A DNA stretch of 64,000 nucleotides, from NCBI RefSeq assembly GCF_000444995.1, contig NC_022044.1, positions 62,001 to 126,000 on the forward strand, in the 5' to 3' direction. A model generated the notes under the pieces. That model had not been told where the DNA came from. It made no database searches and saw nothing but the letters and a program-made list of their open reading frames with translations. This document shows, piece after piece, positions 1 through 16,097 of the stretch (the first letter of the stretch is position 1; the number at the start of each line of letters is the position of its first letter). Origin of the DNA: Paracoccus aminophilus JCM 7686. GTDB taxonomy: Bacteria; Pseudomonadota; Alphaproteobacteria; Rhodobacterales; Rhodobacteraceae. Made by a program: the position numbers and the translations under genes.

Positions 1-535
1 ATGAGCTGGCCCAGAGAGAGGGCAGCCTCCCCGTCGTCGGCAGAGGATTTTTCGGTTCCGGACGTTGTGAGAGAAGGCATATATCGTCGATGGTTAGAAA
101 AGGTTGCAGGGCAGGAAGCCTGTCGTTCAGTGTAGCAGAAGCGCGGGACGGGCGACAATGCAAAGCTCTGGCATTGGACCGCGCCGGGCCAGAACAACTA
201 AGCCGCTGGTTGTGTGGTGCGCTGGGTCCCGATGCGCGTGAAAACACCCCAAGATTGTTCCGCGCGCGCTGCGCGACAGGGCGGGTCCTGCAAAATCGCC
301 GGGGGTTTTGAGGATTCGGCGCCACCCGATCCCCGAGATCGCACCGCTCAGGCGGGTGGCTGGCCGGTGCGGCGGGTTTTCCAGAGCGGATCGGGGAAAG
401 CGCCTCCCGGCGTTTTTCCGCCGATCGGTCGAGGGAAGGTTAAGGGGCTGCTCGGGTAAAAGTCGCAACTTCCCTAGTCACCGTAAGGGGTTGCAAGCGG
501 TTTATAAGGAAACCCGATTCGCGTGAGCGCGCCGG
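1..535. other. Gene-free left end, no coding call
   Basis: I see no convincing gene here. The short open frames on both strands lack a ribosome binding site and do not resemble any protein I know. The one structured element is an imperfect inverted repeat near the right side, GCAACTTCCCTA at 465-476 against TAAGGGGTTGC at 484-494. It lies 42 bp beyond the hutC stop codon and could be a weak terminator or a recombination-type site; I cannot tell which. No tRNA cloverleaf was found by eye. Confidence 0.5.
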
Positions 536-1249
536 TCAGTGTTCGGCGATCATCACATAGCCGGGATGGAAGGCGAGCCGGACCGAGGTGATCGCGCCCA
601 GATCGTTCCAAGTGGTGCGCTGCATCACCAGCAAGGCCTGATCGCGCCGGGTCTCGAGCAGGCGGGCGTCGCGGGCATTGGCGTTTTCGGCGGTAATGTC
701 GAAATCGGCATGGATATAGGGCGCGGTGCGCACCAGCCATTCATTGGCGTTGATCTTGCGGAAATCGACGCCTTGGACCTCGGGCACGGCGACCGGATTG
801 ATCCAGCGGTCCTCGACCTGAAACGGCGCGTCATCGCTGTAATGGACGGCGCGCAGATGGATCAGCAGCGCGCCGACCGGCAGTTTCATCCGCGCGGCCA
901 CCGCTTCAGGCAGCGGGCTCAGGCGCTGCGCGACGATGCGGTGGGAATAGCTGCGCCCGCTTTCCTCGATCCGCTCGCGCCAGATCGGGATGGTCAGCGT
1001 GGCCTTGCGCGAGGGATTGACCGTGACATGGGTGCCCGCGCGGCGCTTGCGGTCAAGCAGCCCCTCTTCGGCGAGCAGTTGCAGCGCCTTGTTGACGGTG
1101 GCCCGGGCCGCGCCGAATTCGATGGCCAGCGCGGCCTCGTCGGGAATGCGGTCGCCTTGCCGCCATTCCCGCTCGACAATCCGGCGCCGCACCTCATTGA
1201 AGATGAGCTGGGCCTTGGAGAAAGCGGGAACGGCGGGTTTGGTGGTCAC
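536..1249 (-). CDS. hutC: Histidine utilization repressor HutC (GntR family)
   Basis: A 237-residue GntR/HutC-type repressor expected to sense urocanate and switch off the hut genes. The N-terminal winged helix-turn-helix spans about residues 12-75 (AATVNKALQLLAEEGLL-like recognition region), and a UTRA-type ligand domain occupies about 95-230. I chose the GTG start at 1247-1249 because it overlaps the hutF stop (ATGTGA) and an AGGA ribosome site lies 5-8 bases upstream. A longer frame reaching 1351 would overlap hutF by 35 codons and is not supported. It is the second gene of a hutF-hutC pair, divergent from hutIHG. The likely target is the 77-bp hutF/hutI intergenic region. The family call is secure and the effector is inferred. 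Confidence 0.9.
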   Translation of the reverse strand: MTTKPAVPAFSKAQLIFNEVRRRIVEREWRQGDRIPDEAALAIEFGAARATVNKALQLLAEEGLLDRKRRAGTHVTVNPSRKATLTIPIWRERIEESGRSYSHRIVAQRLSPLPEAVAARMKLPVGALLIHLRAVHYSDDAPFQVEDRWINPVAVPEVQGVDFRKINANEWLVRTAPYIHADFDITAENANARDARLLETRRDQALLVMQRTTWNDLGAITSVRLAFHPGYVMIAEH

Positions 1250-2619
1250 ATCTTGTCCTGAAGTCGGGCGATACAGCTCAGATAATCTGCAACAATTCGG
1301 TCGCGGTCGATATGTTTTCCGCCCGAGACAACGTGACGTCCAGCCGCCCAAACGTCGGTGACCAGTCCGTCATGTCCGGCGAAGACCAGAGAATCGAGCA
1401 TTTCATCGCCTTTGCGCCCGATCATCACTTCGTTTTTCAGCGAAACCGCGGCGAGGTCGGCGAAGAGGCCCGGCTTGATCGCGCCGGTCGCGCGGCCCGC
1501 GGCTGTGGCGCCACCGTCCAGACCAGCCTCATAAAGCACCCGGCCAGTGGTTTTCTCGCGCGTGGCCAGAATCGCGCGGCCAGTGTCGCGCAGGCGTTGG
1601 CTATATTCGAGCGTGCGCAGCTCTTCGACCAGCGAGATCCGGACGTTGCTGTCCGAGCCATAGCCCCAGCGCCCGCCAGCATTTTGCCAGACCGTGCCGT
1701 TGAAGATCCCGTCGCCAAGGCTCGATTCGGTGATCGGGCACAGGCCCGCGACCGCGCCGCTCTGGGCAAGGCGGATGGTTTCGTCATCGGTCATATGGGT
1801 CGCATGGATCAGCGTCCAGTTGCGGTCCACGCTCGCATGATCGAGCAGCCATTCAACCGGGCGCTGACCATAGCCTGCCGAGATTTCTTCGATCTCGGGT
1901 ATCTGCTCGGCAATGTGGAGATGCATCGGCCGACCGGGGCGCAGCTTTTCGACGAAAGCGAGCCCGTCCTTGCTGACCGCGCGCAGCGAATGCGGCGCAA
2001 TGCCGATCCCGGCATCTGGGCCGAGCTTGGCCAGAGCCGCCTCGGCGCCCTCGACCAGACGCGCGAATTCATCGGGGGTCGTGCCAAAGCGTTGCTGGCC
2101 CGGACCCAGCGCGCGGCCGTCGATGCCGCCGAACTGGTAATGCACCGGCAGAAGCGTCAGGCCGATGCCGGTGCGGCTGGCGGCGGCGGCGATGCGCTCT
2201 GACATCTCGGCGAGATTGGCATAATGCGCGCCGCCGGGCTGGTGATGGAGATAATGGAACTCGACATTGGTGGCATAGCCCGCCTCGAGCATCTCCATCT
2301 GAACCAGCGCCGCGATGGTTTCGACATCCTCGGGCGTCAGATGGTCGAGGAAGCGATACATGATCTTGCGCCAGGTCCAGAACGTGTCCTTGGGCTGGTC
2401 GCCCTTGGCTTCCGACAGGCCCGCCATGGCGCGCTGAAAGGCGTGGCTGTGCAGGTTGGCGATCGAGGGCAGCAACAGCTCGACCCGTTCGCTATCCGCT
2501 GCGGCATTGGCAGGGACATTGGCGGTGACATCGGCGATTCGCCCGTCCGCGCCGATCGTGACCGCGACATTTTCCGCCCAACCGTCAGGCAGCAAAGCCC
2601 GTTCTGCCCAGAGTTTCAC
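1246..2619 (-). CDS. hutF: Formimidoylglutamate deiminase
   Basis: A 457-residue amidohydrolase that converts N-formimino-L-glutamate to N-formyl-L-glutamate and ammonia, the fourth step of the five-step histidine pathway. The metal-binding signature [11 protein letters not shown] (His57 and His59) sits after the typical N-terminal beta domain, and a second His region (HLHIAEQ) follows near residue 245. The start is a GTG at 2617-2619, one of three consecutive GTG codons placed just after a strong AGGAGG; the neighbouring GTG at 2620-2622 is also possible. A longer frame to 2670 would run through the hutI promoter region. The presence of HutF together with HutG (not formiminoglutamase) fits the five-step route of Pseudomonas-like bacteria. 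Confidence 0.93.
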
Positions 2620-2649
2620 CACCACAACCTCCTTGCCGGATGCTTTCAA

Positions 2650-2663
2650 TATGTTTAGACATA
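2650..2663. promoter_or_regulatory. Inverted repeat in hutF/hutI divergent promoter, candidate HutC operator
   Basis: TATGT and ACATA form a perfect 5-bp inverted repeat around the spacer TTAG, placed centrally in the 77-bp region (2620-2696) that separates the divergent hutF and hutI start codons. GntR/HutC proteins bind short inverted repeats of this size, and HutC lies two genes away. The assignment is inference from position and symmetry. Confidence 0.45.
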
Positions 2664-2696
2664 GCATCAACCGCAGTTCATTCCAAGGCAGGATCG

Positions 2697-3899
2697 ATGC
2701 AAGTTTTCACCAATGCCGCCTTCGCAACGATGACAGCAGAATCAACTGGTTATGGCCTGATCGAGGATGGCTCGCTGGTTGTGGACGGGGATCGAATCAT
2801 CTGGATCGGGCAGGCCGCTGATTTGCCAGCCGATTATGTCGATGCCGATTTCACCGATCTCGGCGGGCGTCTGGTCACGCCGGGTCTGGTCGATTGCCAC
2901 ACCCATCTCGTCTATGGCGGCGACCGCGCCCGCGAGTTTGAGATGCGGCTGGAAGGCGCGGGTTATGAAGAGATCGCACGCGCTGGCGGTGGCATCGTCT
3001 CTTCGGTGAAAAACACCCGCGAGGCCTCCGAGGAAGAGCTTTTCGACAGCGCGATCCGTCGCGCCGATACGCTGCTGAATGAAGGCGTCACCACGCTCGA
3101 GATCAAATCAGGCTATGGGCTCGATATCGAGACCGAGCTGAAAATGCTGCGCGTCGCGCGCCGCATCGCCGAGGAGCGCCCGGTGACGGTGGTGACAAGC
3201 TGGCTCGCCGCCCATGCGCTGCCGCCCGAATACAAGGACAACCGCGCGGGCTATCTGCGCGAGGTCGTGCTCGAGGGCATGAGCCGCGCCCATGCCGAAG
3301 GGCTGATCGACGCGGTTGATGGCTTTTGCGAAGGCATCGCCTTTTCGGTCGAGGAAATGCGGCTGGTCTTTGATCACGCGAAAAGCCTTGGCCTGCCGGT
3401 GAAGCTTCATGCCGAGCAGCTTTCCGATCTGCATGGCGCGGTTTTGGCCGCCGAATATGACGCGCTCTCGGCCGACCATCTCGAATGGCTGGGGCAGGAC
3501 GGCGTGGATGCGATGGCGAAATCGGGGACCGTCGCGGTCTTGCTGCCGGGCGCGTTCTATACGTTGCGCGAAACCGTCTATCCGCCGGTGCAGGCCTTGC
3601 GCGACGCAGGCGTGGCGATTGCGCTTGCGACCGATGCCAATCCGGGCACCTCGCCGCTGACCTCGATCCTGCTCACGATGAACATGGGCGCGACGATTTT
3701 CCGCCTGACCCCGGTCGAATGCCTGACCGCCGTCACGCGCAACGCGGCCAAGGCGCTTGGCTTTGCCGATCGCGGCACTCTGGCCGTCGGCCAGCGCGCC
3801 GATCTGGCGATTTACGACATCCAACACCCCGCGGAGCTGACCTATCGCATCGGGTTCAATCCGCTTCACGCTCGCGTTCTGGGAGGCGAACTTGTCTGA
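2697..3899 (+). CDS. hutI: Imidazolonepropionase
   Basis: A 400-residue zinc amidohydrolase that opens imidazolone-5-propionate to N-formimino-L-glutamate, the third step of histidine breakdown. Visible signatures are [12 protein letters not shown] (His68 and His70 as metal ligands), KLHAEQ further on, and ATDANPGT near residue 320, all typical of HutI. The ATG at 2697 follows an AGGA at 2689-2693 and begins [12 protein letters not shown]; an upstream extension to 2640 would read through the promoter and is unlikely. It is the first gene of the rightward hut operon, and its stop overlaps the start of hutH. Confidence 0.95.
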
Positions 3900-5433
3900 A
3901 CTTATCCTTACCCCCGGCGAAGCCACCCTTGCCGAACTCGAGCGCGTCTGGCGCGAGGGCCTGTCGGTCCGTCTGGCCGACAGCGCATGGCCGGGGATCG
4001 AGGCCGCTGCCGCCCGCATCGCCGCCGCCGCGAATGGCTCGGTCCCGGTTTACGGGGTGAACACCGGCTTTGGCAAACTCGCCTCGATCAAGATCAAGCC
4101 GGAAGACACCTCGACGCTGCAACGCAACCTGATCCTGTCGCATTGCTGCGGCGTGGGCGAGCCGGTCGAGGAAGAAACCGTCCGCCTGATCATGGTGCTG
4201 AAGCTATTGTCGCTGGGTCGCGGCGCCTCGGGCGTGCGTCCCGAGGTCGTGCATCTGATCGAGAACATGCTCGCCAAAGGCGTCCTGCCGGTGATCCCGT
4301 CGCAGGGTTCGGTCGGCGCTTCGGGCGATCTCGCGCCCTTGGCCCATATGGCCGCCGTCATGCTGGGCGAGGCGCGCGCGACCTATCAGGGCCGCGAATA
4401 TTCCGGCGCCGAGGCTTTGGCTGCGGCTGGCCTGAAGCCGATCGTTCTCGCCGCCAAAGAGGGCCTTGCGCTCATCAATGGCACGCAGGTCTCGACCGCC
4501 TTCGCGCTGGCTGGCCTGTTTACGGCCTTCCGTCTGGCGCGCAATGCGCTGGTCTCCTCCTCGCTCTCGACCGATGCGATCATGGGCTCGACCGCGCCCT
4601 TCTTTGAGGAGATCCACCAGCTGCGCGGCCATCGCGGCCAGATCCTTGCCGCCCGCGTCATCCGCGATCTGATGGGTGGTTCGGAAATCCGCGAAAGCCA
4701 CCGCGAGGGCGATACCCGCGTCCAAGACCCCTATTGCATCCGCTGCCAGCCGCAGGTGACGGGCGCGGCGATCGACATTCTGACCCAAGCCGCGCGCACG
4801 CTGGAAATCGAGGCCAATGCCGCGACCGACAACCCGCTGGTGCTGACCGAGGCCGATCAGATCGTTTCGGGCGGGAACTTCCACGCCGAGCCGGTCGCCT
4901 TCGCCGCCGATATGATCGCGCTGGCGATTGCGGAGATTGGCGCGATCTCGCAGCGCCGCATCGCGCTGATGGTTGACCCGGCGCTCTCGCATGATCTGCC
5001 GCCCTTCCTGACGCCCGATCCGGGCCTGAACTCGGGGCTGATGATCGCCGAAGTGACCTCGGCCGCGCTGATGAGCGAGAACAAGCACCTCGCGAACCCC
5101 TGCTCGACCGACTCGACCCCGACCTCGGCGAACCAGGAGGATCACGTGTCGATGGCCGCCCATGGCGCGCGCCGTCTGAAGCGGATGAACACGAACCTCG
5201 CCCATATCGTCGGGATTGAGGTGATGTGCGCGGCGGCGGGCGTCGAATTCCGCGCGCCCTTGAAAACCTCCCAGCCGCTTCAGCATGTCATCGCGCGTCT
5301 GCGCAAGGACATCCCGGCGCTGGAGCAGGACCGCTACCTCGCCCCCGATCTGAGCAAAGTGGCCGAGCTGGTCGCGTCGGGCGCGCTGATCGAGGTCGTG
5401 CCGGAGGCCCATATCGAAGAGGTGCGCCCGTGA
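3892..5433 (+). CDS. hutH: Histidine ammonia-lyase
   Basis: A 513-residue lyase that removes ammonia from L-histidine to give urocanate. The Ala143-Ser144-Gly145 triplet inside [14 protein letters not shown] is the one that cyclises to the MIO cofactor in this family. Other family blocks are [12 protein letters not shown] near residue 54 and [12 protein letters not shown] in the middle. The start is a TTG at 3892-3894 placed after GGGAGG, overlapping the hutI stop by 8 bases, so translation is probably coupled. Length equals the usual 500-515 residues. Confidence 0.97.
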
Positions 5434-6239
5434 GCGCGCTCGCGAACCCGGTCGAGGTCGTTCAGGGCGACAGCCCGATCATCCTCGGTCTGCCTCATAC
5501 GGGGACGTTCGTCCCCGATGAGATCCGCGCGAAACTGAACCCGCGCGGGCTCGAGCTTGCCGATACCGACTGGCATATCGAGCGGCTTTATGACGGGCTC
5601 TTGCCCGGCGCGACCACGGTCCGCGCGCTTTTCCACCGCTATGTCATCGACGCGAACCGCGGCCCGGATGATGCGAGCCTCTATCCGGGGCAGAACACCA
5701 CCGGCCTCGTGCCGACGACCGATTTCGACGGCGCCCCGATCTGGATCGACGCCCCGACCGAGGCAGAAATCGCCGATCGGAAGGCGCGTTTTCACGCCCC
5801 CTATCACGCCACTTTGGCGGCAGAGATCGCGCGGGTGAAGGCGAAACATGGCGTTGCGATCCTTTATGATTGCCATTCGATCCGCAGCCATATCCCCTTC
5901 CTCTTTGAAGGGACCTTGCCAGATTTCAACATCGGCACGAACCTTGGCGCGACCTGCGATGCGGCGATTGAAAAGGCAGTTTTCGACATTTCTGCCGCGA
6001 CGGGGCGGACCCATGTGCTGAATGGCCGCTTCAAGGGCGGCTGGACGACGCGCCATTATGGCCAGCCGCAGGACGGGATCCATGCGATCCAGATGGAGCT
6101 CGCGCAATCCTCGCATCTGACCACCGAAGCCGCGCCTTTCGCCTATGACGAGGCCAAGGCCGAGGCTTTGCGCAAACCGTTGCGCGCGATCATCGAGGCG
6201 CTCGAGACCGTCGCCGCGACACTCGCGAGGCCGGCATGA
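5430..6239 (+). CDS. hutG: N-formylglutamate deformylase
   Basis: A 269-residue N-formylglutamate amidohydrolase that yields glutamate and formate, the last step of the pathway. [12 protein letters not shown] near the N-terminus and YDCHSIRS in the middle are the metal-binding blocks of this family. The GTG start at 5430 overlaps the hutH stop (GTGA), with AGAGG seven bases upstream; a start further left would lie wholly inside hutH. The formate released can feed the one-carbon pool that the folD and purU genes of this region also handle. Confidence 0.93.
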
Positions 6240-7387
6240 GCGGGCCGCTGACAGGGATCAAGGTGCTGGACCTGTCGCGTGTGCTCGCCGGTCCCTATTG
6301 CACCGCGCTGCTCGCCGATCTTGGCGCCGAGGTCATCAAGCTGGAGCCGCCGCAGGGCGATGATTACCGCCATATCGGCCCGTTCAAACAGGGCGAAAGC
6401 GCGCTCTTCACGCTGAACAATCGCGGCAAGAAAAGCGTGGTTCTCGATCTCAAGAACCCCGAGCATCTGAAGCTTGCGCAAGAGATTTCGGATCACGTCG
6501 ATGTCGTGGTCGAAAACTTCCGCCCCGGCGTCGCCGATCGGCTGGGGCTTGGTGCCGAGGCTCTGCGCGCGCGCAATCCGCGCCTGATCTATTGCTCGAT
6601 TTCGGGCTTTGGTCAGCAGGGGCCGTTCAAGGATCTGCCCGCCTATGATCTGGTGGTCCAAGCCATGTCCGGCCTGATGGCGGGCACCGGCGAAGAGGGC
6701 GGCGCGCCGCTGAAAACCGGCGAGAGCATGGCCGATCTGGTCGCGGGCCTTTTCGCGAGCTGGTCGATCATGGCGGCGCTGGTTCAGCGCAATGCGACCG
6801 GGCAGGGGGCAACCCTTGATGTCGCGATGTATGACGCGCTCTTTTCCATGCTGACGACCAGCCATGCGCTGCATCTTTACGCGGGGGTCTTGCCCAAGCG
6901 CGTCGGCAACCGTCATCCGCTCTCGACCCCCTTTGGCTGCTATGCGACCAAGGATGGACAGGTGGCGATTTGCGTCTTGAATCCCAAGCAGTTCAAGGCC
7001 TTGGCCGATCTGATCGGCGCGCCCGAAGCGGTGGATGATCCGCGTTTCGCGACCGATGAAAGCCGGACCGAACACGAGCCCGCCGTCAAGGCGCTGATCG
7101 AGGCCTGGTCGCAGGGGCTTTCGACCGATGAGGCCGTCCGCGCTTTGTCCGGGGTCGGTCTGCCGACCGCGCCGATCTGGGACATCGCGCAGGCTGCGGC
7201 AAACGAGCACGCGAGCGCGCGCGGACTGGTGACCGAGCTGCCGCATCCCGTTTTGGGCACGGCGCCGGTGATCGGTCAGCCGGTGCGCTTTGATGGCGAA
7301 AAGCCGGTCGCCGCGCAATCGGCGCCGCGCCTTGGGGGGGATCTCGACGAGGTCTTACGCGAGTTGGGATTGGAGGGTCGCGCATGA
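6236..7387 (+). CDS. Family III CoA-transferase (CaiB/BaiF type) in hut operon
   Basis: A 383-residue CoA-transferase of the CaiB/BaiF (family III) group. The opening (GIKVLDLSRVLAGPYCTALLADLGA) and Asp167 in GESMADLVAG match the catalytic Asp of CaiB and FRC. These enzymes swap CoA between two carboxylic acids through an enzyme-bound aspartyl anhydride. The start overlaps the hutG stop by ATGA and its own stop overlaps the next gene the same way, so it belongs to the hut operon. The substrate is unknown. Because family III enzymes act on aryl-acrylyl and aryl-propionyl CoA esters elsewhere, urocanyl-CoA and imidazole-propionate are plausible partners (inference). It is not needed for any known step of histidine breakdown. 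Confidence 0.85.
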   Translation: MSGPLTGIKVLDLSRVLAGPYCTALLADLGAEVIKLEPPQGDDYRHIGPFKQGESALFTLNNRGKKSVVLDLKNPEHLKLAQEISDHVDVVVENFRPGVADRLGLGAEALRARNPRLIYCSISGFGQQGPFKDLPAYDLVVQAMSGLMAGTGEEGGAPLKTGESMADLVAGLFASWSIMAALVQRNATGQGATLDVAMYDALFSMLTTSHALHLYAGVLPKRVGNRHPLSTPFGCYATKDGQVAICVLNPKQFKALADLIGAPEAVDDPRFATDESRTEHEPAVKALIEAWSQGLSTDEAVRALSGVGLPTAPIWDIAQAAANEHASARGLVTELPHPVLGTAPVIGQPVRFDGEKPVAAQSAPRLGGDLDEVLRELGLEGRA

Positions 7388-8547
7388 ATCCGCAAGACGA
7401 ATGGCATATGCTGCAAGACGAAGAGCGGCTGTTCTGCGACGTTCTTGAACGCATCTGCGCCGAGAAAATCGCGCCGCTGGCCCATGACACCGACGAGAAT
7501 TCGACCTTCGTTCACGCCCAGCTGCGCACACTTGGCGAGGTGGGCATGATGGGCGCGAACCTGCCCGAGGAATTCGACGGCTCGGCGATTTCGGCCCCGG
7601 CGCTTCTGCGCGCGGTGGCTCTGGTCGCGGGGGCCTGCGGCTCGACCGCCTCGGCGCTGACCGCGCATTATCTGGCGACCGACTCGATCCTGATCGGCGG
7701 CACGCAGGCGCAAAAAGAGCTCTGGCTGCCGAAAGCGGCGACGGGCGTGGCGCTTGGCGCTTTTGCCCTGACCGAGCCGACCGCCGGTTCCGACCCCGCC
7801 GATATGAAGACCCGCGCCCGCCGCGTTGACGGCGGCTGGCACATCAAGGGCACGAAATGCTTCATCTCGAATGGCGGTGTGGCTGATTTCATCGTGCTTT
7901 ACGCGGTGACCGACCCGGAGAAAGCCCATCGCGGCATTTCCGCCTTTATCGTGCCGAAGGGCACACCGGGGCTTGAGGCCGGGCCTGCGGAAAAGACCAT
8001 GGGGCTGAAAGGCGGCCATGTCTTCACACTGAATATCGACATCACTTTGCCCGAGGATGCGCTCTTGGGCGAAGAGGGCAAGGGCTTCCGCACCGCGATG
8101 CAGGTTCTCGACAATGGCCGGATCGAGGTTGCCGCGCAATGTCTGGGTCTGGCGGAAACCGCGATGAAAGCGGCGCTCGCCTATGCCAAGGACCGCGTCA
8201 TCGGCGGCGAGGCTTTGAGCGACCGCCAAGGCATCCGCTGGATGATCGCCGATATGGGCGTGGCTTACCGCTCGGCGCTGCTGCTGAGCCAAGACGCCGC
8301 GCGCCAGCGCGATGCGGCCCATCACGGTAGCGGCGGGCGCTTTTCGCTGGCGGCCTCGATGGCGAAGCTTGCCGCGTCAGAGGCGGCGGGCAAGATCGCC
8401 GATAGCGCGCTGCAGCTGCATGGCGGCTATGGCTATACCCGAGATTTCCCCATCGAACGCATCAACCGCGACCTTCGGATCATGCGGATCTACGAAGGTT
8501 CCTCGGAAATTCAACGCATTATCATTTCCGGCAATATGCTGGCCTGA
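7384..8547 (+). CDS. Acyl-CoA dehydrogenase in hut operon
   Basis: A 387-residue FAD acyl-CoA dehydrogenase of the short/branched-chain type. ALTEPTAGSD (around 118-127) and KCFISNGGVADF are the flavin-binding blocks, and Glu371 in IYEGSSEIQR matches the catalytic base position of SCAD/MCAD. It desaturates acyl-CoA at the alpha-beta bond. It overlaps the CoA-transferase gene by ATGA and lies 12 bp before hutU, so the two form a cassette embedded between hutG and hutU. The substrate is not shown by sequence. From context, imidazolepropionyl-CoA to urocanyl-CoA is the most economical guess; a branched-chain acyl-CoA is the alternative. Confidence 0.87.
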   Translation: MNPQDEWHMLQDEERLFCDVLERICAEKIAPLAHDTDENSTFVHAQLRTLGEVGMMGANLPEEFDGSAISAPALLRAVALVAGACGSTASALTAHYLATDSILIGGTQAQKELWLPKAATGVALGAFALTEPTAGSDPADMKTRARRVDGGWHIKGTKCFISNGGVADFIVLYAVTDPEKAHRGISAFIVPKGTPGLEAGPAEKTMGLKGGHVFTLNIDITLPEDALLGEEGKGFRTAMQVLDNGRIEVAAQCLGLAETAMKAALAYAKDRVIGGEALSDRQGIRWMIADMGVAYRSALLLSQDAARQRDAAHHGSGGRFSLAASMAKLAASEAAGKIADSALQLHGGYGYTRDFPIERINRDLRIMRIYEGSSEIQRIIISGNMLA

Positions 8548-8559
8548 TCGGAGACGAAC

Positions 8560-10236
8560 ATGGACAATCCCACCAACAACCCCCGTCACAACACCCGCGA
8601 CGTCTATCCCGCGACCGGGACCGAGATCACTGCGAAAAGCTGGCTGACCGAAGCGCCGATGCGGATGCTGATGAACAACCTCCATCCCGATGTGGCCGAG
8701 AACCCGCATGAGCTGGTGGTTTACGGCGGCATCGGTCGCGCCGCGCGCACCTGGAAAGACTTTGACCTGATCGTCGAGAGCCTGAAGAACCTCGAAGCCG
8801 ACGAGACCCTGATGGTCCAGTCGGGCAAGCCGGTTGGCGTCTTCAAGACCCATAAAGATGCGCCGCGCGTTCTGATCGCGAACTCGAACCTCGTGCCGCA
8901 TTGGGCCAATTGGGACCATTTCAACGAGCTCGATAAGAAGGGTCTGGCGATGTATGGCCAGATGACCGCGGGTTCGTGGATCTATATCGGCACGCAGGGC
9001 ATCGTTCAGGGCACCTATGAAACCTTCGTCGAGGCTGGTCGTCAGCATTACGGCGGCAGCCTCAAGGGCAAATGGGTGCTGACCGGCGGTCTCGGCGGCA
9101 TGGGCGGCGCGCAGCCTCTGGCGGCTGTGATGGCGGGCGCTTGCTGCTTGGCCGTCGAATGCGACGAAACCCGCGCCGATTTCCGTCTGCGCACCCGCTA
9201 CGTCGATGAAAAGACCCATTCGCTCGACGAAGCCCTGGCGATGATCGACCGCTGGACCAAAGCCGGTGAGGCGAAATCCGTGGCGCTGATCGGCAACGCG
9301 GCCGAGATCTTCCCGGAGCTCGTCAAGCGCGGCGTGCGTCCCGATATCGTCACCGACCAGACCTCGGCGCACGATCCGGTTCATGGCTATCTGCCGATTG
9401 GCTGGACCGTCGCTGAATGGCGCGCCCGTCAAGAGACCGATCCGAAAGGCGTCGCGAAAGCCGCGCGTGCGTCGATGCGCAAGCAGGTCGAGGCGATGGT
9501 CGCCTTCCATGACGCGGGCATCCCGACCGTCGATTATGGCAACAACATCCGCCAGATGGCGCTGGAAGAGGGTTTCGAGCGCGCCTTTGCCTTCCCGGGC
9601 TTCGTGCCGGCCTATATCCGCCCGCTCTTCTGCCGCGGCATCGGTCCCTTCCGTTGGGCCGCGCTCTCGGGTGATCCGGAAGATATCTACAAGACCGACC
9701 AGAAGGTGAAAGAGCTCGTCAATGACGCGCATCTGCACAATTGGCTCGACATGGCCCGTGACCGTATCAGCTTCCAGGGCCTGCCCGCGCGGATCTGCTG
9801 GGTCGGTCTCGGCATCCGCCACAAGCTCGGCCTCGCCTTCAACGAGATGGTGCGCAATGGCGAGCTGAAAGCCCCGATCGTCATCGGCCGCGACCACCTC
9901 GACTCGGGCTCGGTCGCCTCGCCGAACCGCGAGACGGAATCGATGCGCGATGGTTCGGACGCCGTGTCCGACTGGCCGCTTCTGAACGCGCTGCTCAACA
10001 CCGCCTCGGGCGCGACCTGGGTCAGCCTGCATCACGGCGGCGGCGTCGGCATGGGTTTCTCGCAGCATTCGGGCATGGTCATCTGCTGCGATGGCAGCGC
10101 GGATGCCGATGCGCGTCTGGCGCGTGTGCTGTGGAACGACCCGGCAACCGGCGTCATGCGCCATGCTGACGCGGGTTACGAGATCGCGCTGGACTGTGCG
10201 CGCGAACACGGGTTGAATTTGCCTGGGATTCTCTGA
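8560..10236 (+). CDS. hutU: Urocanate hydratase
   Basis: A 558-residue NAD-dependent urocanase that hydrates urocanate to imidazolone-propionate, the second step of the pathway. [11 protein letters not shown] (near residue 172) is the NAD-binding loop, and the long conserved run [28 protein letters not shown] block near residue 350 is diagnostic. Length matches the family (about 555). The ATG at 8560 has GGAG 7 bases upstream. It is the last enzyme gene of the operon and is followed by a perfect stem-loop before the transporter genes. Confidence 0.97.
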
Positions 10237-10245
10237 TCGGAGCAT

Positions 10246-10267
10246 GCGCCGCCCAACGAGGCGGCGC
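10246..10267 (+). other. Intercistronic stem-loop after hutU
   Basis: GCGCCGCC and GGCGGCGC form a perfect 8-bp stem with a CAACGA loop, 9 bases after the hutU stop. No run of T follows, so it is more likely an mRNA-stabilising or partial attenuation element ahead of the binding-protein gene than a full terminator. Confidence 0.7.
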
Positions 10268-10302
10268 AGCCAGAGATCGCCTGTCCAACAACGGAGATCG
10301 CT

Positions 10303-11127
10303 ATGAGCTATCAGACCACCTTCAAAGCTGCCCTGTTTGGCCTTGCTGCGCTTGGCTTTTCCGGGGTCGCCGCTTCGGCGGACCAGCTTGCGGATATCAA
10401 GGCCGCGGGCAAGATCGTCACGGCCACCGATATGCATTACGCCCCGTTCGACATGCTGAAAAACGGCACCTATGAGGGGATGACGAAGGATCTCTTCGAC
10501 GGCGTCGCCAAGGAGCTCGGGGTCGAGCCGGTTTATCAAGACATCCCCTGGACGGCCGAGCTTCCCGGTCTGGAGGTCAAGAAATTCGACATCGTCATCG
10601 CGCCGGTCACGATCACGCCCGAGCGGCTTGATCGCTATACCTTCACCCTGCCGATCGCCGATGCGACCGTCTCGCTGGTGAAGGCGGCGGGCAACAAGGA
10701 CATCGGCAAGCCTGAAGACATCAAGGGCAAGACCGTGGGCGTCCAGCAGGGCACCGCGCAGTTCAAGCAGTTGCAGGCTTACGGCGACAAGCTGGGCGGG
10801 GTGACGGTCAAGGAATACGGCACCACCGACGAGGCCTATGCCGATCTCGCGGCGGGTCGTCTGGATGCCGTGGCGGGCTCGCTGCCGAACCTGACCTATC
10901 TGGTCAAAGAGCGCGGCGAGACCTTCGCTCTGCTCGAACCCGCTTCCTTCGGCGAGCCGACCTATTTCGCTTGGGTTCTGCGCAAGGGCGACGAATCCGC
11001 CAGCTTTGCCAAAGCGATCGACGATGCGCTGCTGAAAATGACCGATGACGGTCAGATCAAAGCCATCCAGGAAAAATGGCTTGGCACCTATACCGAACTG
11101 CCGCGCGAAGTGCCCGGCCAGAAGTAA
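10303..11127 (+). CDS. Amino-acid ABC transporter, substrate-binding protein (family 3)
   Basis: A 274-residue periplasmic binding protein of the polar amino-acid family. A Sec signal peptide is visible (KAALFGLAALGFSGVAASA, probable cut before DQL). The mature part starts LADIKAAGKIVTATDMHYAPF and contains GKTVGVQQGTAQ, typical family 3 blocks. The ATG follows CGGAG by 6 bases. It lies after hutU and before two permeases and an ATPase, so histidine or a related imidazole acid such as urocanate or imidazole propionate is the likely ligand. Both sides of this gene carry GC-rich stem-loops, which would allow the binding protein to be made in excess of the membrane subunits. Confidence 0.88.
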   Translation: MSYQTTFKAALFGLAALGFSGVAASADQLADIKAAGKIVTATDMHYAPFDMLKNGTYEGMTKDLFDGVAKELGVEPVYQDIPWTAELPGLEVKKFDIVIAPVTITPERLDRYTFTLPIADATVSLVKAAGNKDIGKPEDIKGKTVGVQQGTAQFKQLQAYGDKLGGVTVKEYGTTDEAYADLAAGRLDAVAGSLPNLTYLVKERGETFALLEPASFGEPTYFAWVLRKGDESASFAKAIDDALLKMTDDGQIKAIQEKWLGTYTELPREVPGQK

Positions 11128-11137
11128 GAGCCTCCTG

Positions 11138-11159
11138 CGGGCGGGGGAGATCCCGCCCG
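11138..11159 (+). other. Intercistronic stem-loop after binding-protein gene
   Basis: CGGGCGGG and CCCGCCCG form a perfect 8-bp stem around a six-base loop, 10 bases after the stop codon of the binding protein. There is no T-tract. Such elements commonly protect binding-protein mRNA and lower downstream permease expression. Confidence 0.7.
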
Positions 11160-11181
11160 TAAACTTCTGATCGGAGAGTCG

Positions 11182-11829
11182 ATGTTCTCGATATCTACCT
11201 TCACGGACGGTTTTGGCCCGCTGCTTTGGGCCGCGCGCTATACGCTGCTTGTCTCGGGCCTTGGCATTGCGCTTGGGCTAGTGCTGGGCGCCGTCATCTG
11301 CATCATGGGCATGTCGAAATCGCGCCCTGCGCGGGTCTTCGCCGCCCTTTGGGTCAGCTATCTGCGCGGTGTGCCGATGCTGGTCCAGCTGCTGGTGGTC
11401 TTCTTCCTGCTGCCGGTGATCGGCATCGACGTGCCCGCGATTGTCGCGGCGGTCGGGACGACGGCGGTCGTGGCCAGCGCCTATATTTCCGAGATCTGGC
11501 GCGGCGCGATCAATGCTTTGCCCAAAGGTCAGGCCGAGGCCGCCGTGGCGATTGGCATGGCGCCGGGCGATGTCTGGCGGCGCGTGATCCTGCCGCAAGC
11601 GGTTGCTTTGTCGCTGCCCGCGCTCATCAATGAGCTGATCTTGCTGGTCAAAGCCTCGTCGCTGGTCTCGGTCGTCGGCATTATGGAAATCACCCGCGCC
11701 AGTCAGGCTCAGGCCGGAACCACCTTCCGCCCGCTTGAGGCTTATCTCGCGGCGGCCTGTATCTATCTGGCGATCAACCTCTGTCTGGCGGCCATCGGGC
11801 GCTATCTCGAACACAGGATGGCGATCTGA
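11182..11829 (+). CDS. Polar amino-acid ABC transporter permease (first)
   Basis: A 215-residue inner-membrane permease with about five hydrophobic segments. The coupling loop EAAVAIGMAPGDVWRRVILP is the EAA motif that docks on the ATPase, and RGVPMLVQLLVVFF is the typical upstream block of the HisMQ family. The start has GGAGAG 4 bases upstream. Its stop overlaps the ATG of the second permease. Together with its neighbours it forms a histidine-type importer driven by the hut operon. Confidence 0.9.
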   Translation: MFSISTFTDGFGPLLWAARYTLLVSGLGIALGLVLGAVICIMGMSKSRPARVFAALWVSYLRGVPMLVQLLVVFFLLPVIGIDVPAIVAAVGTTAVVASAYISEIWRGAINALPKGQAEAAVAIGMAPGDVWRRVILPQAVALSLPALINELILLVKASSLVSVVGIMEITRASQAQAGTTFRPLEAYLAAACIYLAINLCLAAIGRYLEHRMAI

Positions 11830-12491
11830 TGGACCTGTCGATCTTCGTCACCTATTGGCCGATCCTCGTGCGTGGCTTCGGCATGACGGTCTTTTGCTGG
11901 ATCCTCGGCACCGCCTTCGGCATGGCGCTGGGTCTGGCGATTGCGCTCTGTCAGCGTTATGCGCCCGCGCCGTTTCGCTGGCTCTTGCAGATCTATATCG
12001 AGATCATTCGCGGCACGCCCTTCCTCGTCCAGCTGTTCGTGCTCTATTACGGCGGCCCGCTGATCGGCTTGCGGCTGGATGCGCTGCCCGCCGGGCTTTT
12101 GGGGCTGACGATCTATGGCAGCCCTTATTTCGCCGAGATCTTCCGCTCGGCTTTCCGCGCCGTGCCCAATGGTCAGATCGAGGCCGCCCGCGCTATCGGC
12201 ATGGCCGAACCGACGATCATCCGCCGCATCCTTCTGCCGGTCGGGCTGGTCTCGGCTTTGCCTGCGCTGGTCAATTTCTCGATCATTCTGACGAAAGAGA
12301 CGGTGATCCTCTCGATCATCACCGTGCCCGAGCTGATGTATCAGACCCAGCGCATGTCGACCGAAACCTTCCGCTATCTCGAAGCGAACCTCGTTCTGGC
12401 GCTGTTCTTCTGGTTCTTCGTCGAGGTCATTTCGCGCATCGGTCGCCGGTTCGAGCGCCGCATCACCCATTATCTGATCGAAAGGCCGTAA
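11829..12491 (+). CDS. Polar amino-acid ABC transporter permease (second)
   Basis: A 220-residue membrane subunit related to the preceding one, with the blocks RGTPFLVQLFVLYYGGP and EAARAIGMAEPTIIRRILLP (EAA loop). The ATG overlaps the TGA of the first permease (GATCTGATGG), indicating coupled translation. It pairs with the first permease to form the transmembrane channel of the hut-linked importer. Confidence 0.9.
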   Translation: MDLSIFVTYWPILVRGFGMTVFCWILGTAFGMALGLAIALCQRYAPAPFRWLLQIYIEIIRGTPFLVQLFVLYYGGPLIGLRLDALPAGLLGLTIYGSPYFAEIFRSAFRAVPNGQIEAARAIGMAEPTIIRRILLPVGLVSALPALVNFSIILTKETVILSIITVPELMYQTQRMSTETFRYLEANLVLALFFWFFVEVISRIGRRFERRITHYLIERP

Positions 12492-12492
12492 G

Positions 12493-13302
<810 letters not shown>

Positions 13303-13323
13303 GGTCATGGCTCTTGCGGCGCG

Positions 13324-13347
13324 CGCCCGGTCACTGGCCGGGCGTTT
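13324..13347 (+). terminator. Stem-loop terminator candidate after hut transport genes
   Basis: CGCCCGG and CCGGGCG form a 7-bp GC stem with a seven-base loop, followed by TTT. It lies 21 bases beyond the ATPase stop codon. Confidence 0.5.
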
Positions 13348-13385
13348 GCCATTGGCGGCCCCGAGAAAACGGTTGCAATTCAAGG

Positions 13386-13405
13386 GCTCTGCGATCAGAG
13401 CTTTT
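13386..13405 (+). terminator. Intrinsic terminator before the phospholipid cluster
   Basis: GCTCTG and CAGAGC form a 6-bp stem with the loop CGAT, followed directly by TTTT. It is the second hairpin in the gap between the hut operon and the acyltransferase gene and probably separates the two transcription units. Confidence 0.6.
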
Positions 13406-13431
13406 GTGACGACATTCTAACAGACAAAATC

Positions 13432-14130
13432 GTGACGCATTCTCAGACCCCAGCCGACGACCCGCCGCGCCGCAGCTGGCGCGATCTTCCCAGACGGTGG
13501 GCTGCCTTCGTGGCCAGCGGCGCGATCCGCATCTTTGCCCGGCTGATCACGGCGGTTCAGCCTGAGTGGCGCGGCGTCGATCCTCTGGGGCCGCAGCGGA
13601 TCTATTTCGCCAATCACAACAGCCACGGCGATTTCATTCTGATCTGGTCGGTTCTACCCCATCAGATGCGCAACCGCACCCGGCCGGTTGCGGGCGTCGA
13701 TTATTGGGGCGGTCGGGGCCTGCGCGCCTTCATCGGGCGCGATGTCATCAATGCCGTGCTGATCGAGCGCGAGCGTGAAGGCCGCCAAGGCGATCCGGTC
13801 GAGACGATGGCCGGGGCGCTGGACGATGGGGCCTCGCTGATCCTCTTTCCCGAAGGCACGCGCAACCTTACCGATGAGGTGCTCTTGCCCTTCAAGAGCG
13901 GGCTTTTCCATCTTGCCAGCGCGCGCCCGAATATTGATCTGGTCCCGGTCTGGATCGAGAACCTGAACCGGGTCATGCCCAAGGGCGAATTCATCCCGGT
14001 GCCGCTGATGTGCAAGACCGTCTTCGGCGCGCCTTTGCGGCTTCAGCCGGGCGAGAGCAAGACCGATTTCCTGACCCGCACGCGCGAGGCTTTGCTTGCG
14101 CTGCGGCCCAAACCCGCAGAGGCCAGCTGA
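13432..14130 (+). CDS. Lysophospholipid acyltransferase family protein (PlsC-like)
   Basis: A 232-residue acyltransferase. The HX4D catalytic motif is His62 to Asp67 (NHNSHGDF), and FPEGTRN near residue 142 is the glycerol-phosphate-binding block of PlsC-like enzymes. It should transfer an acyl chain to a lysolipid or similar acceptor at the inner membrane. The start is a GTG at 13432 with no strong ribosome site. It is the first gene of a tight four-gene set with a CdsA-like enzyme, a small membrane protein and a CDP-alcohol phosphatidyltransferase, so the set looks like a dedicated lipid headgroup pathway in addition to housekeeping enzymes. Confidence 0.82.
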   Translation: MTHSQTPADDPPRRSWRDLPRRWAAFVASGAIRIFARLITAVQPEWRGVDPLGPQRIYFANHNSHGDFILIWSVLPHQMRNRTRPVAGVDYWGGRGLRAFIGRDVINAVLIEREREGRQGDPVETMAGALDDGASLILFPEGTRNLTDEVLLPFKSGLFHLASARPNIDLVPVWIENLNRVMPKGEFIPVPLMCKTVFGAPLRLQPGESKTDFLTRTREALLALRPKPAEAS

Positions 14131-15077
14131 TGTCGCCCGCTGACAGCGATCTCGTGACACTTATCCTTGGCGCGGGCGGAATCCTTGTGCTCGCTTCGGT
14201 CATTGGCGGCGTGCTGGGTTGGCTTTATTCGCCGGACGGACGCAATGTCACGATCGAGAACCTGAACGACCGCATCCGCTCGTGGTGGGTCATGGTGCTG
14301 TTTCTCTCGATCGCGCTTCTGGGCGGGCGGATCGGGGTGACGCTGCTTTTCGCGCTCTGCTCCTTTGCGGCTTTGCGTGAATTCCTGACCCTGACCAATG
14401 CCGGACGCGCCGATCATTGGTCGCTGGTCTGCGCCTTTTTCGTGGTCCTGCCGCTTCAGTATTATTTCATCTGGATCGGCTGGTATGACATGTTCGCGGT
14501 CTTCATCCCGGTCTATGTCTTCCTGCTGTTGCCCATCGTCTCGGCCTTTCGCGGAGACACGCGCAACTATCTGATCCGCGTCGCAGAGGTCCAATGGGCG
14601 CTGATGATCTGCGTCTTCTGCGCCTCGCATGTGCCCGCGTTGCTGACGCTGAAGCTGCAGAATTTCGACGGCCGGAACGTGCTTTTGATCGCCTTCCTCG
14701 TCGTCGTGGTCCAGCTTTCGGACGTGCTGCAATATGTCTGGGGCAAGCTTCTGGGCAAGCACAAGATCGCGCCGAAGCTCTCGCCCTCGAAGACGGTCGA
14801 GGGCTTTCTCGGCGGCAGTCTCAGCGCCACGGCGATTGGCGCGCTCTTGTGGTGGATGACGCCGTTCAACCCGTGGCAGGCCGCGCTCATGGCCTTCATC
14901 ATCACGCTTCTGGGCTTTTGCGGCGGGCTGGTCATGTCGGCGATCAAGCGCGATCGCGGCGTCAAGGATTGGGGCCATGCGATCGCGGGGCATGGCGGCT
15001 TCATCGACCGGCTGGATTCGGTGGTCTTCTCCGCGCCGATCTTTTTCCATCTGACGCGCTATTTCTGGTCGGTCTGA
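14130..15077 (+). CDS. CdsA-like phosphatidate cytidylyltransferase
   Basis: A 315-residue multi-spanning membrane enzyme expected to make CDP-diacylglycerol from phosphatidate and CTP. The C-terminal signature is clear: SAIKRDRGVKDWGHAIAGHG, continued by GFIDRLDS. About eight hydrophobic segments precede it. The ATG at 14130 overlaps the acyltransferase stop by one base (TGATG); a longer frame would sit inside that gene. Its place in a PlsC-CdsA-CDP-alcohol transferase set resembles the E. coli ynbA/ynbB arrangement rather than the housekeeping cdsA neighbourhood, so I leave the symbol blank. Confidence 0.85.
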   Translation: MSPADSDLVTLILGAGGILVLASVIGGVLGWLYSPDGRNVTIENLNDRIRSWWVMVLFLSIALLGGRIGVTLLFALCSFAALREFLTLTNAGRADHWSLVCAFFVVLPLQYYFIWIGWYDMFAVFIPVYVFLLLPIVSAFRGDTRNYLIRVAEVQWALMICVFCASHVPALLTLKLQNFDGRNVLLIAFLVVVVQLSDVLQYVWGKLLGKHKIAPKLSPSKTVEGFLGGSLSATAIGALLWWMTPFNPWQAALMAFIITLLGFCGGLVMSAIKRDRGVKDWGHAIAGHGGFIDRLDSVVFSAPIFFHLTRYFWSV

Positions 15078-15078
15078 G

Positions 15079-15456
15079 ATGGGCCAAAGCCTCGCGCGCC
15101 GCAGCTTCAGCCATGTCGCGGTGGCCTTTCTCGCGATGGGAAGCTGGGCCGCTTTCGCCAATCGCGCCCATCCGATGCCCGAGCCCGTGCTGGCCGGGCT
15201 GGTGCAGGGCGCGCTCTCGGGCACGATCACTCTGGGGCTGAAACGGATGATCGAGGCGGTCTCGGCGCGGATCTTGGGCGTGGGCGCGCTGATCTGGCCG
15301 CCGGTGATTGCGCTGAGCGCCTCGGCGCTCATCCTGACCAGCCTGCACCGGCTGGCGGGCACGCCCGAGATCGCCGCGACGATTGCGCTGCCCCTGAGCG
15401 TCACGACGCTCTATTCGACGATTTACAGCTACGCCTTGTGGAGATCACGGCCATGA
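15079..15456 (+). CDS. Small membrane protein of unknown function
   Basis: A 125-residue protein I do not recognise by name. It has hydrophobic stretches at about residues 12-27, 38-50, 68-86 and 100-116, so three or four membrane segments. It starts one base after the CdsA-like stop and its end overlaps the next start by ATGA, which places it firmly inside the lipid cluster. A helper or flippase-like role for the lipid made here is only a guess. Confidence 0.7.
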   Translation: MGQSLARRSFSHVAVAFLAMGSWAAFANRAHPMPEPVLAGLVQGALSGTITLGLKRMIEAVSARILGVGALIWPPVIALSASALILTSLHRLAGTPEIAATIALPLSVTTLYSTIYSYALWRSRP

Positions 15457-16097
15457 CCGACGTTCCGAACCGCCGCCCGCTGGCCAGCCGCCAAAGCCGA
15501 TGGGCGGGCGAGGCGACGCGGCGGCTGGTCAAAACCGGGATCACGCCCAACCAGATCTCGATGCTCGGCATGGTCGCGGCGCTGGTCGCGGGCCTGTCCT
15601 TCTGGGGCGCGGGGGGCGTCTCGGGCGCGGCGCGTGTCCTGCTGCTGCTGCTCGGCGCGGTCTTCGTTCAGGCGCGGCTGATCTGCAATCTGCTTGACGG
15701 AATGGTCGCGGTCGAGGGGGGCAAGCGCGCGCTTGATGGCGGGTTCTGGAACGAATTTCCCGACCGCGTCTCGGATCTCTTGATCCTGCTGGGGATCGGG
15801 CTTGGCCTTGGCCATCCGGCGCTTGGCTGGGCGGCGGTCTCTTTCGCTTTCCTGACGGCCTATGTCCGCGAGCTTGGCGTGAGCTGCGGCCGGCCTGCGG
15901 ATTTCGCCGGGCCGATGGCGAAACAGCATCGCATGGCGCTGGTGACCGGGGCGGCGGTGCTGTCGGCGTTCGCACCGCTTTGGAGCGGACGCGACGAGCT
16001 GCTTCTCGCGGCGCTGTGGCTGGTGGCGGTCGGCGCGGCCCTGACGGCCTTGCGCCGCAGCGCGAGGCTGGTGATCGCGCTGCGTCGGGGCCGCTAA
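15453..16097 (+). CDS. CDP-alcohol phosphatidyltransferase family protein
   Basis: A 214-residue membrane enzyme of the CDP-alcohol phosphatidyltransferase family. The catalytic block lies near residues 81-107 and reads DGMVAVEGG...LDGGFWNEFPDRVSD. Compared with the canonical pattern D-G-x2-A-R-x8-G-x3-D-x3-D, the Arg is Val and the third Asp is Asn; the other Asp residues are kept. This variant suggests a subfamily with a different acceptor alcohol. The ATG overlaps the preceding stop; a start 15 bases upstream is possible. Its stop overlaps the convergent LacI-type gene by three bases. The lipid product cannot be read from sequence. Confidence 0.8.
   Translation: MTDVPNRRPLASRQSRWAGEATRRLVKTGITPNQISMLGMVAALVAGLSFWGAGGVSGAARVLLLLLGAVFVQARLICNLLDGMVAVEGGKRALDGGFWNEFPDRVSDLLILLGIGLGLGHPALGWAAVSFAFLTAYVRELGVSCGRPADFAGPMAKQHRMALVTGAAVLSAFAPLWSGRDELLLAALWLVAVGAALTALRRSARLVIALRRGR

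Follow-up and report, generated by a model that had tools for sequence, protein, structure and literature searches.

A coenzyme A-transferase and acyl-CoA dehydrogenase gene pair in the hut operon of Paracoccus aminophilus JCM 7686: a probable entry of imidazole propionate into histidine degradation

What is the role of a family III coenzyme A (CoA)-transferase and an acyl-CoA dehydrogenase inside a histidine utilization (hut) operon? The question arises from a 64,000-nucleotide stretch of Paracoccus aminophilus JCM 7686 (contig NC_022044.1, positions 62,001 to 126,000; hereafter the window), in which the first-pass annotation had placed such a gene pair, overlapping hutG and each other by ATGA, just before hutU. 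This arrangement was borne out by the open reading frames (ORFs) and the sequence, with a gap of 12 bp between the dehydrogenase stop and the hutU start at 8560. Both pair genes are intact, and the families proposed for them agreed with the domain searches: the transferase matched PF02515 with 427.5 bits against a gathering score of 23.3 and the dehydrogenase matched PF00441, PF02770 and PF02771 (N-terminal, middle and C-terminal domains), all above their gathering scores, while all core hut genes of the operon (hutC, F, I, H, G, U) scored over the NCBI cut-offs. The 4.87-Mb genome has 14 acyl-CoA dehydrogenase matches, and only the one at 7384-8547 lies in the hut operon; since this arrangement also recurs across genera, the placement is more than chance. 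The next-best dehydrogenase of the same genome is 40% identical to the 7384-8547 product, and the dehydrogenase of P. sulfuroxidans is 94% identical. A complete polar-type ATP-binding cassette (ABC) importer (10303-13302) lies downstream of hutU, and this importer and the operator at 2649-2663 turned out to be part of the same unit as the pair.

Judged from sequence, the pair is probably an entry of imidazole propionate to the hut pathway via a CoA-transferase/dehydrogenase cycle leading to urocanate. Imidazole propionate is deamino-histidine, or dihydrourocanate. The linked ABC importer would take it up and the CoA-transferase would convert it to imidazolepropionyl-CoA, with urocanyl-CoA as the donor once the cycle is running and another acyl-CoA in the first turnover. 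The dehydrogenase would then oxidize the alpha-beta bond with flavin adenine dinucleotide and, presumably, an electron-transfer flavoprotein, producing urocanyl-CoA, and the released urocanate would be hydrated by HutU and further degraded by HutI, HutF and HutG in the established pathway.

The first-pass annotation had also called for a search of other hut operons, its salvage proposal being at risk if the pair were not kept there; in close relatives the pair is conserved beside hut. The comparison of loci (L numbers) included one scan of genome contigs with 44 loci and, in total, 63 fetched loci with a dehydrogenase of at least 50% identity after removal of 11 duplicate loci, gathered by several routes and not a random sample. 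The hutI query used for mapping started 19 residues too early, and some hutI matches in the loci extend into the operator region. In Paracoccus, including P. denitrificans DSM 413 (L005) with the same operon as the window, and in Mesorhizobium, Pseudaminobacter, Alsobacter, Pseudochelatococcus, Antarcticimicrobium and others, the pair was located between hutG (or hutH) and hutU, while the order in a metagenome-assembled genome (MAG) of Rhizobiales (L042) was hutU-pair-hutD, hutD being recognised by eye. It lies near hutH in a Zavarzinia MAG (L039) and in genome G053 (L079), adjoins hutC and hutU together with a binding protein of a tripartite ATP-independent periplasmic transporter in L099 and L100 (G412 and G508), and is found within about 3 kb of hutU in two Brevibacterium loci of another phylum (L040 and L044). 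In a Rhodospirillales MAG, the C-terminal part of a dehydrogenase directly adjoins hutU and hutH at the end of one contig (L061), and another contig ends within a dehydrogenase (L046); the two contigs were left unjoined. Among the 43 loci with a dehydrogenase of at least 62.5% identity, 32 contained hut genes, 10 were stand-alone or hut-deleted and one represented a different island (L135). In Mycoplana dimorpha (L018) a pair 81-85% identical lies between hutG and hutU behind a hut promoter with the canonical TGTATATACA site; the hutF, hutI and hutH of this operon reach only 50-68% identity, as though the pair had been inserted into a different hut operon.

Co-occurrence of the orthologue with hutU was counted in sampled genomes, with E values up to 1e-90 for the orthologue and up to 1e-190 for hutU. 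In the order sample (244 genomes) the orthologue was present in 13, and hutU occurred in 12 of these 13 versus 117 of the 231 genomes without it; in the class sample (387 genomes) the figures were 5 of 5 versus 102 of 382. The one-sided Fisher probabilities of 0.0026 (order) and 0.0015 (class) become 0.0045 and 0.0055 when the window's own genome is left out; they ignore relatedness, and physical linkage explains part of them. All eight order members with a copy of at least 66% identity carry it beside hut. Among the nine sampled copies of at most 63% identity, those of G412, G508 and G053 are also beside hut, and no hut adjacency was found within the fetched stretches of the remaining six (G511, G562, G625, G239, G048 and G083).

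A second type of organization, found in rhizobia and one Paracoccus, is a stand-alone module consisting of a HutC repressor, operator, pair and ABC importer. Eight Hyphomicrobiales loci (L008, L010, L012, L015, L021, L025, L033 and L041) combine the repressor and the pair with the same ABC importer, and no hut genes were recognised within them; the L015 strain is Shinella fusca DSM 21319, and a further module is located on a Sinorhizobium mexicanum plasmid (L138). In Paracoccus alkanivorans (L009) an intact pair and importer are present amid an N-terminal piece of hutI, a C-terminal piece of hutG and both ends of hutU, which suggests how stand-alone modules arise. Another contig of this organism (L091) has a hut operon without the pair; the two cluster copies thus show complementary losses. 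Weaker traces, with E-values from a very small database, are short hutU-like remnants in L008 and L025 and a hutI-like start remnant in L033. A maximum-likelihood tree (39 rows, 1724 columns) needs four context changes, three of them forced by well-supported branches, and from the remnants and the nesting we infer that the direction of change was loss of hut genes. hutU was present elsewhere in all nine genomes concerned (eight Hyphomicrobiales and P. alkanivorans), and hutU was found in 19 of the 19 genomes searched, 17 of which carry the pair (the L043 and L045 loci are without the transferase). Retention of the pair, importer and repressor during loss of the neighbouring hut genes is what would be expected if resident hut enzymes consume the product of the pair. 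As a separate observation, a broken C-terminal end of the dehydrogenase was found between hutG and hutU in L127:9917-10044 (G612), with the importer still downstream.

The regulatory part of the unit connects both contexts. With a cut-off of 220 for HutC (TIGR02018), the window repressor scored 240.3 (539-1270), and both stand-alone repressors tested were over the cut-off as well (L012, 242.5; L008, 244.7). In a FastTree phylogeny (midpoint root, no support shown) the repressors of window-type hut operons and of stand-alone modules formed one long-branched clade, with L091 inside, while other HutC types were found in the diverged pair loci L030, L036, L039, L079, L099, L100, L104, L105 and L107 and also in those resident rhizobial hut operons that could be placed. 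The canonical HutC operator TGTATATACA was not found in the window hut promoter, and the search therefore led to a distinct TTTAGACATA site. Its form AAGTNTAGACATA is exact in 23 of 125 loci, one a duplicate, either in the hutF-hutI gap, in the repressor-transferase gap or, in L009, ahead of the hutI remnant, so that one operator motif serves both hut-linked and stand-alone contexts. The window has a one-mismatch form, with zero expected from 100 shuffles. Within nine whole genomes, all six exact sites (in five genomes) were at the module, and one-mismatch sites were at the module in the window's genome and three more; because the pattern overall was not commoner than its reversed control (34 versus 44), it is the placing of the sites that carries the operator evidence. 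The resident hut operons of seven out of nine genomes with stand-alone or hut-deleted modules have TGTATATACA, that of L089 has TGTCTATACA and L091 has a module-type site. The repressor and the TTTAGACATA sites were recognised in the sequence, and the HutC-type repressor would control the unit by binding there in response to a ligand. The title of a 1965 paper reportedly describes imidazolepropionate as a nonmetabolizable inducer of histidine-degrading enzymes.

The importer provides a clue to the substrate. In amino-acid binding proteins, such as HisJ and GlnH, an Asp holds the alpha-ammonium group and an Arg the carboxylate. The window binding protein matched the PF00497 domain and has Ser193 in place of the alpha-ammonium Asp: in printed alignments compared by eye, this Ser stands opposite the Asp of ArtJ and AncCDT-1. 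All 40 rows with an identity of 40% or more have both the Ser and the Arg (the L120 row is the window's own protein), while 9 of the 13 other distinct family members of the window's genome have Asp (L113 and L114 represent the same ORF and were counted once). Replacement of Asp by Ser with the Arg kept favours a ligand with a carboxylate and without an alpha-amino group, i.e., imidazole propionate or urocanate, a pattern as expected for deamino-histidine. In the order sample, six out of eight genomes with the binding protein have the orthologous pair.

The catalytic residues named in the annotation were located as claimed, residue 167 of the transferase being Asp and residue 371 of the dehydrogenase Glu. 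Asp is catalytic in family III CoA-transferases and Glu at the short-chain acyl-CoA dehydrogenase (SCAD) position in acyl-CoA dehydrogenases; the former position was Asp in 62 of 62 relatives and the latter Glu in all 62 relatives that have a residue at this position. Several named identities were tried and rejected. Carnitine assignments failed with both CaiB (129.3 versus a cut-off of 413) and CaiA (168.5 versus 540), as did glutarate CoA-transferase (303 versus 750), glutaryl-CoA dehydrogenase (209.2 versus 470) and 3-sulfinopropanoyl-CoA desulfinase (221.6 versus 600), and the mesaconate, oxalate, acryloyl-CoA and cyclohexanecarbonyl-CoA identities were far under the NCBI cut-offs. By these models the pair belongs to both broad enzyme families but falls outside every named substrate family tested. 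Asp100, in the TAHYLATDS stretch, was invariant among the 62 clade rows that have a residue at this position, and four outgroup rows (L002, L003, L045 and L047) have another residue; it was dropped as a mark of an imidazole pocket and as substrate proof because the diverged copies away from hut also have it.

Several facts weigh against the imidazole propionate entry. Below 62.5% dehydrogenase identity there were 20 loci, seven with hut genes and 13 with no hut gene in the fetched locus, and G562 (L102) has a 56% copy with no hutU match at 1e-190. As many as 117 of the 129 hutU-positive genomes of the order are without the orthologue, and the pair is therefore accessory. The Ser/Arg pattern of the binding protein fits urocanate equally well, two genomes (G411 and G612) have the binding protein without the orthologous pair, although G612 keeps the dehydrogenase remnant, and P. 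sulfuroxidans (G492, L034) has its importer about 190 kb away from the pair. Finally, the dehydrogenase sequence by itself does not specify an imidazole ring. The salvage of imidazole propionate into urocanate proposed in the annotation is thus borne out in part: the recurrent hut linkage, the HutC-type repressors in loci free of hut genes, the retention of the pair with its importer after hut loss, the importer without the alpha-ammonium Asp and the HisC-like neighbours of some diverged loci (see below) speak for it, while the substrate and the urocanyl-CoA donor cycle are predictions and diverged copies often lie away from hut.

Wider islands surround some of the diverged pairs. The L042 operon (L042:7024-12465) continues with hutD, a HisC-like aminotransferase and a GlcD-like oxidase, and an ABC transporter is encoded on the opposite strand; a Mesorhizobium AR02 plasmid (L133:3532-16152) carries HutC, ABC, the pair, LysR, a Rieske oxygenase, a reductase and HisC-like and GlcD-like genes, and a Gemmobacter fulvus plasmid (L135:1836-10137) carries LysR, Rieske, reductase, HisC-like and GlcD-like genes and the pair. 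With a hisC cut-off of 276.55, the HisC-like protein of L135 was over (283.4) and that of L133 just short (271.7), while the GlcD-like proteins were far under the glcD cut-off; G053 has weaker matches (42% and 32%) near its pair. HisC acts on an imidazole substrate, and the HisC-like neighbours therefore point to imidazole acids. They suggest salvage of imidazole lactate too, with conversion of imidazole lactate to histidine as the obvious route, and salvage of imidazole lactate and of methylimidazoles is possible for the L133, L135 and L042 islands. Tentatively, the pair might be central to an as yet unrecognised salvage of imidazole side chains that feeds hut at two points. Imidazole propionate would enter at urocanate and, in the diverged islands on plasmids and chromosomes, the GlcD-like oxidase would convert imidazole lactate to imidazole pyruvate and the HisC-like aminotransferase would convert this to histidine, sometimes after Rieske N-demethylation; the whole would spread on plasmids and shed hut genes where the host has them. 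In 1973 Coote and Hassall reportedly saw Pseudomonas testosteroni grow on imidazolylpropionate as well as on histidine and imidazolyl-lactate, a phenotype of the kind predicted here, for which no genes are known to us.

Second HutU-like copies, 45-50% identical, were present in G003, G004, G005, G009 and G015. The one of G003 (L068) exceeded the thiourocanate hydratase cut-off, which points to ergothioneine breakdown, and no match was found for the other second HutU-like gene searched (L069). Together with the stand-alone module of G003 and the VanA-type Rieske oxygenase genes recurring near diverged pairs (L038, L039, L079, L100, L133 and L135), a family with N-demethylases among its members, these copies speak for the same chemistry acting mainly on modified imidazole propionate, i.e., N-methyl- or 2-thio-imidazolepropionate derived from methylhistidine or ergothioneine. 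We consider this unlikely, as the window-type operon showed no recognisable Rieske or thiourocanate gene and the adjoining hutU scored 947 bits as urocanate hydratase versus 668 as thiourocanate hydratase (cut-off 930).

Diverged pairs without recognised hut genes were observed in L080, L081, L082 and L131, and carboxylate transporters of the CitMHS, GltS-type and tripartite tricarboxylate families lie near those of L080, L082 and L131. Such copies off hut, next to transporters for other carboxylates, the large size and promiscuity of both enzyme families and automated names such as 3-sulfinopropanoyl-CoA desulfinase would fit a pair acting on a non-imidazole acid (glutarate, gamma-butyrobetaine, 3-sulfinopropionate or a branched short-chain acid), with its hut place a regulatory convenience; the scores far under the cut-offs of the NCBI models of glutarate, carnitine and sulfinopropanoyl enzymes, the recurrent hut linkage, the HutC-type control and the HisC-like neighbours in three loci make this quite unlikely. 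A pair running in reverse, using urocanate as an electron sink and reducing it to imidazole propionate, is very unlikely: the nearest mechanistic analogues (CaiB/CaiA and the clostridial FldA/AcdA) are reductive and Paracoccus can respire without oxygen, but the importer travels with the pair, the urocanate-consuming hutU comes after it and no electron-transfer flavoprotein gene was seen by eye among the ORFs of window positions 1-16000, where no dedicated search was made. The features of the unit are listed below; the hutI start (ATG at 2697) was picked by comparison with relatives, the longest ORF beginning at 2640.

Table 1. Features of the hut unit in the window (positions are those of the 64,000-nucleotide stretch).
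Feature	Position	Strand	Remarks	Basis
Family III CoA-transferase gene	6236..7387	+	383 aa; proposed imidazole propionate CoA-transferase; Asp167	ORF, Pfam, sequence
Acyl-CoA dehydrogenase gene	7384..8547	+	387 aa; short-chain-type fold; proposed imidazolepropionyl-CoA dehydrogenase; Glu371	
ATGA overlap, hutG stop/transferase start	6236..6239	+		sequence
ATGA overlap, transferase stop/dehydrogenase start	7384..7387	+		sequence
hutU, urocanate hydratase	8560..10236	+	consumer of the proposed product	TIGR01228, 947 bits vs cut-off 375
hutG, N-formylglutamate deformylase	5442..6239	+		TIGR02017, over cut-off
hutH, histidine ammonia-lyase	3892..5433	+		TIGR01225, over cut-off
hutI, imidazolonepropionase	2697..3899	+		TIGR01224, over cut-off
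hutF, formimidoylglutamate deiminase	1246..2625	-	start codon approximate	TIGR02022, over cut-off
hutC-type GntR/UTRA repressor	536..1351	-	start codon uncertain	PF00392, PF07702
Operator-like site ATATGTTTAGACATA, pair-linked HutC type	2649..2663	+	one mismatch to ATAAGTNTAGACATA	
Predicted repressor site AAGTTTAGACATA			repressor target	sequence
ABC importer substrate-binding protein	10303..11127	+	Ser193 instead of alpha-ammonium Asp; Arg108 kept	
ABC importer permease 1	11182..11829	+	travels with the pair	ORF
ABC importer permease 2	11829..12491	+	travels with the pair	ORF
ABC importer ATPase	12493..13302	+	travels with the pair	ORF

Among known systems, Escherichia coli CaiB/CaiA has a similar plan of a family III CoA-transferase beside an acyl-CoA dehydrogenase-type flavoenzyme, forming a CoA-recycling pair. 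The identities are only 26% and 30%, and Cai, a carnitine CoA-transferase with a crotonobetainyl-CoA reductase, is reductive, while the window pair is predicted to be oxidative and to lead into hut. The clostridial FldA/AcdA for phenylpropionate, set beside the window by description, similarly combines a transferase and a dehydrogenase acting on an aryl-acrylate/aryl-propionate couple, but in a reductive branch with a dehydratase. By analogy, the window pair would be best explained as a Cai- or Fld-type transferase/dehydrogenase cycle run oxidatively. In comparison with the canonical hut operon (hutC, F, I, H, G, U), all core genes of which are present in the window, the pair and the importer are extra and the operator differs from the rhizobial hut TGTATATACA.

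Imidazole propionate is a bacterial product of urocanate and a gut-microbe metabolite tied to type 2 diabetes and cardiovascular disease. The same interconversion of urocanate and imidazole propionate is performed by the urocanate reductase UrdA, which, as described in a passage of PMC7921117, is CoA-independent, acts in the opposite direction and belongs to an unrelated flavoprotein type. A passage of a 2025 review terms imidazole propionate the non-metabolizable product (PMC11872695). Among the matches listed from the open-licence literature, a scope outside which most subscription papers and the physiology of the 1960s-70s fall, no title or start of an abstract named genes of imidazole propionate catabolism. 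If true, the proposed function of the pair would provide a gene-level lead to bacterial consumption of imidazole propionate and close a histidine-urocanate-imidazole propionate cycle, the genes would serve as a metagenome marker for imidazole propionate consumers and the enzymes could be used to assay or remove this metabolite. It would also mean that a peripheral module was added to a hut regulon and, in some lineages, persisted after the adjacent hut genes were lost.

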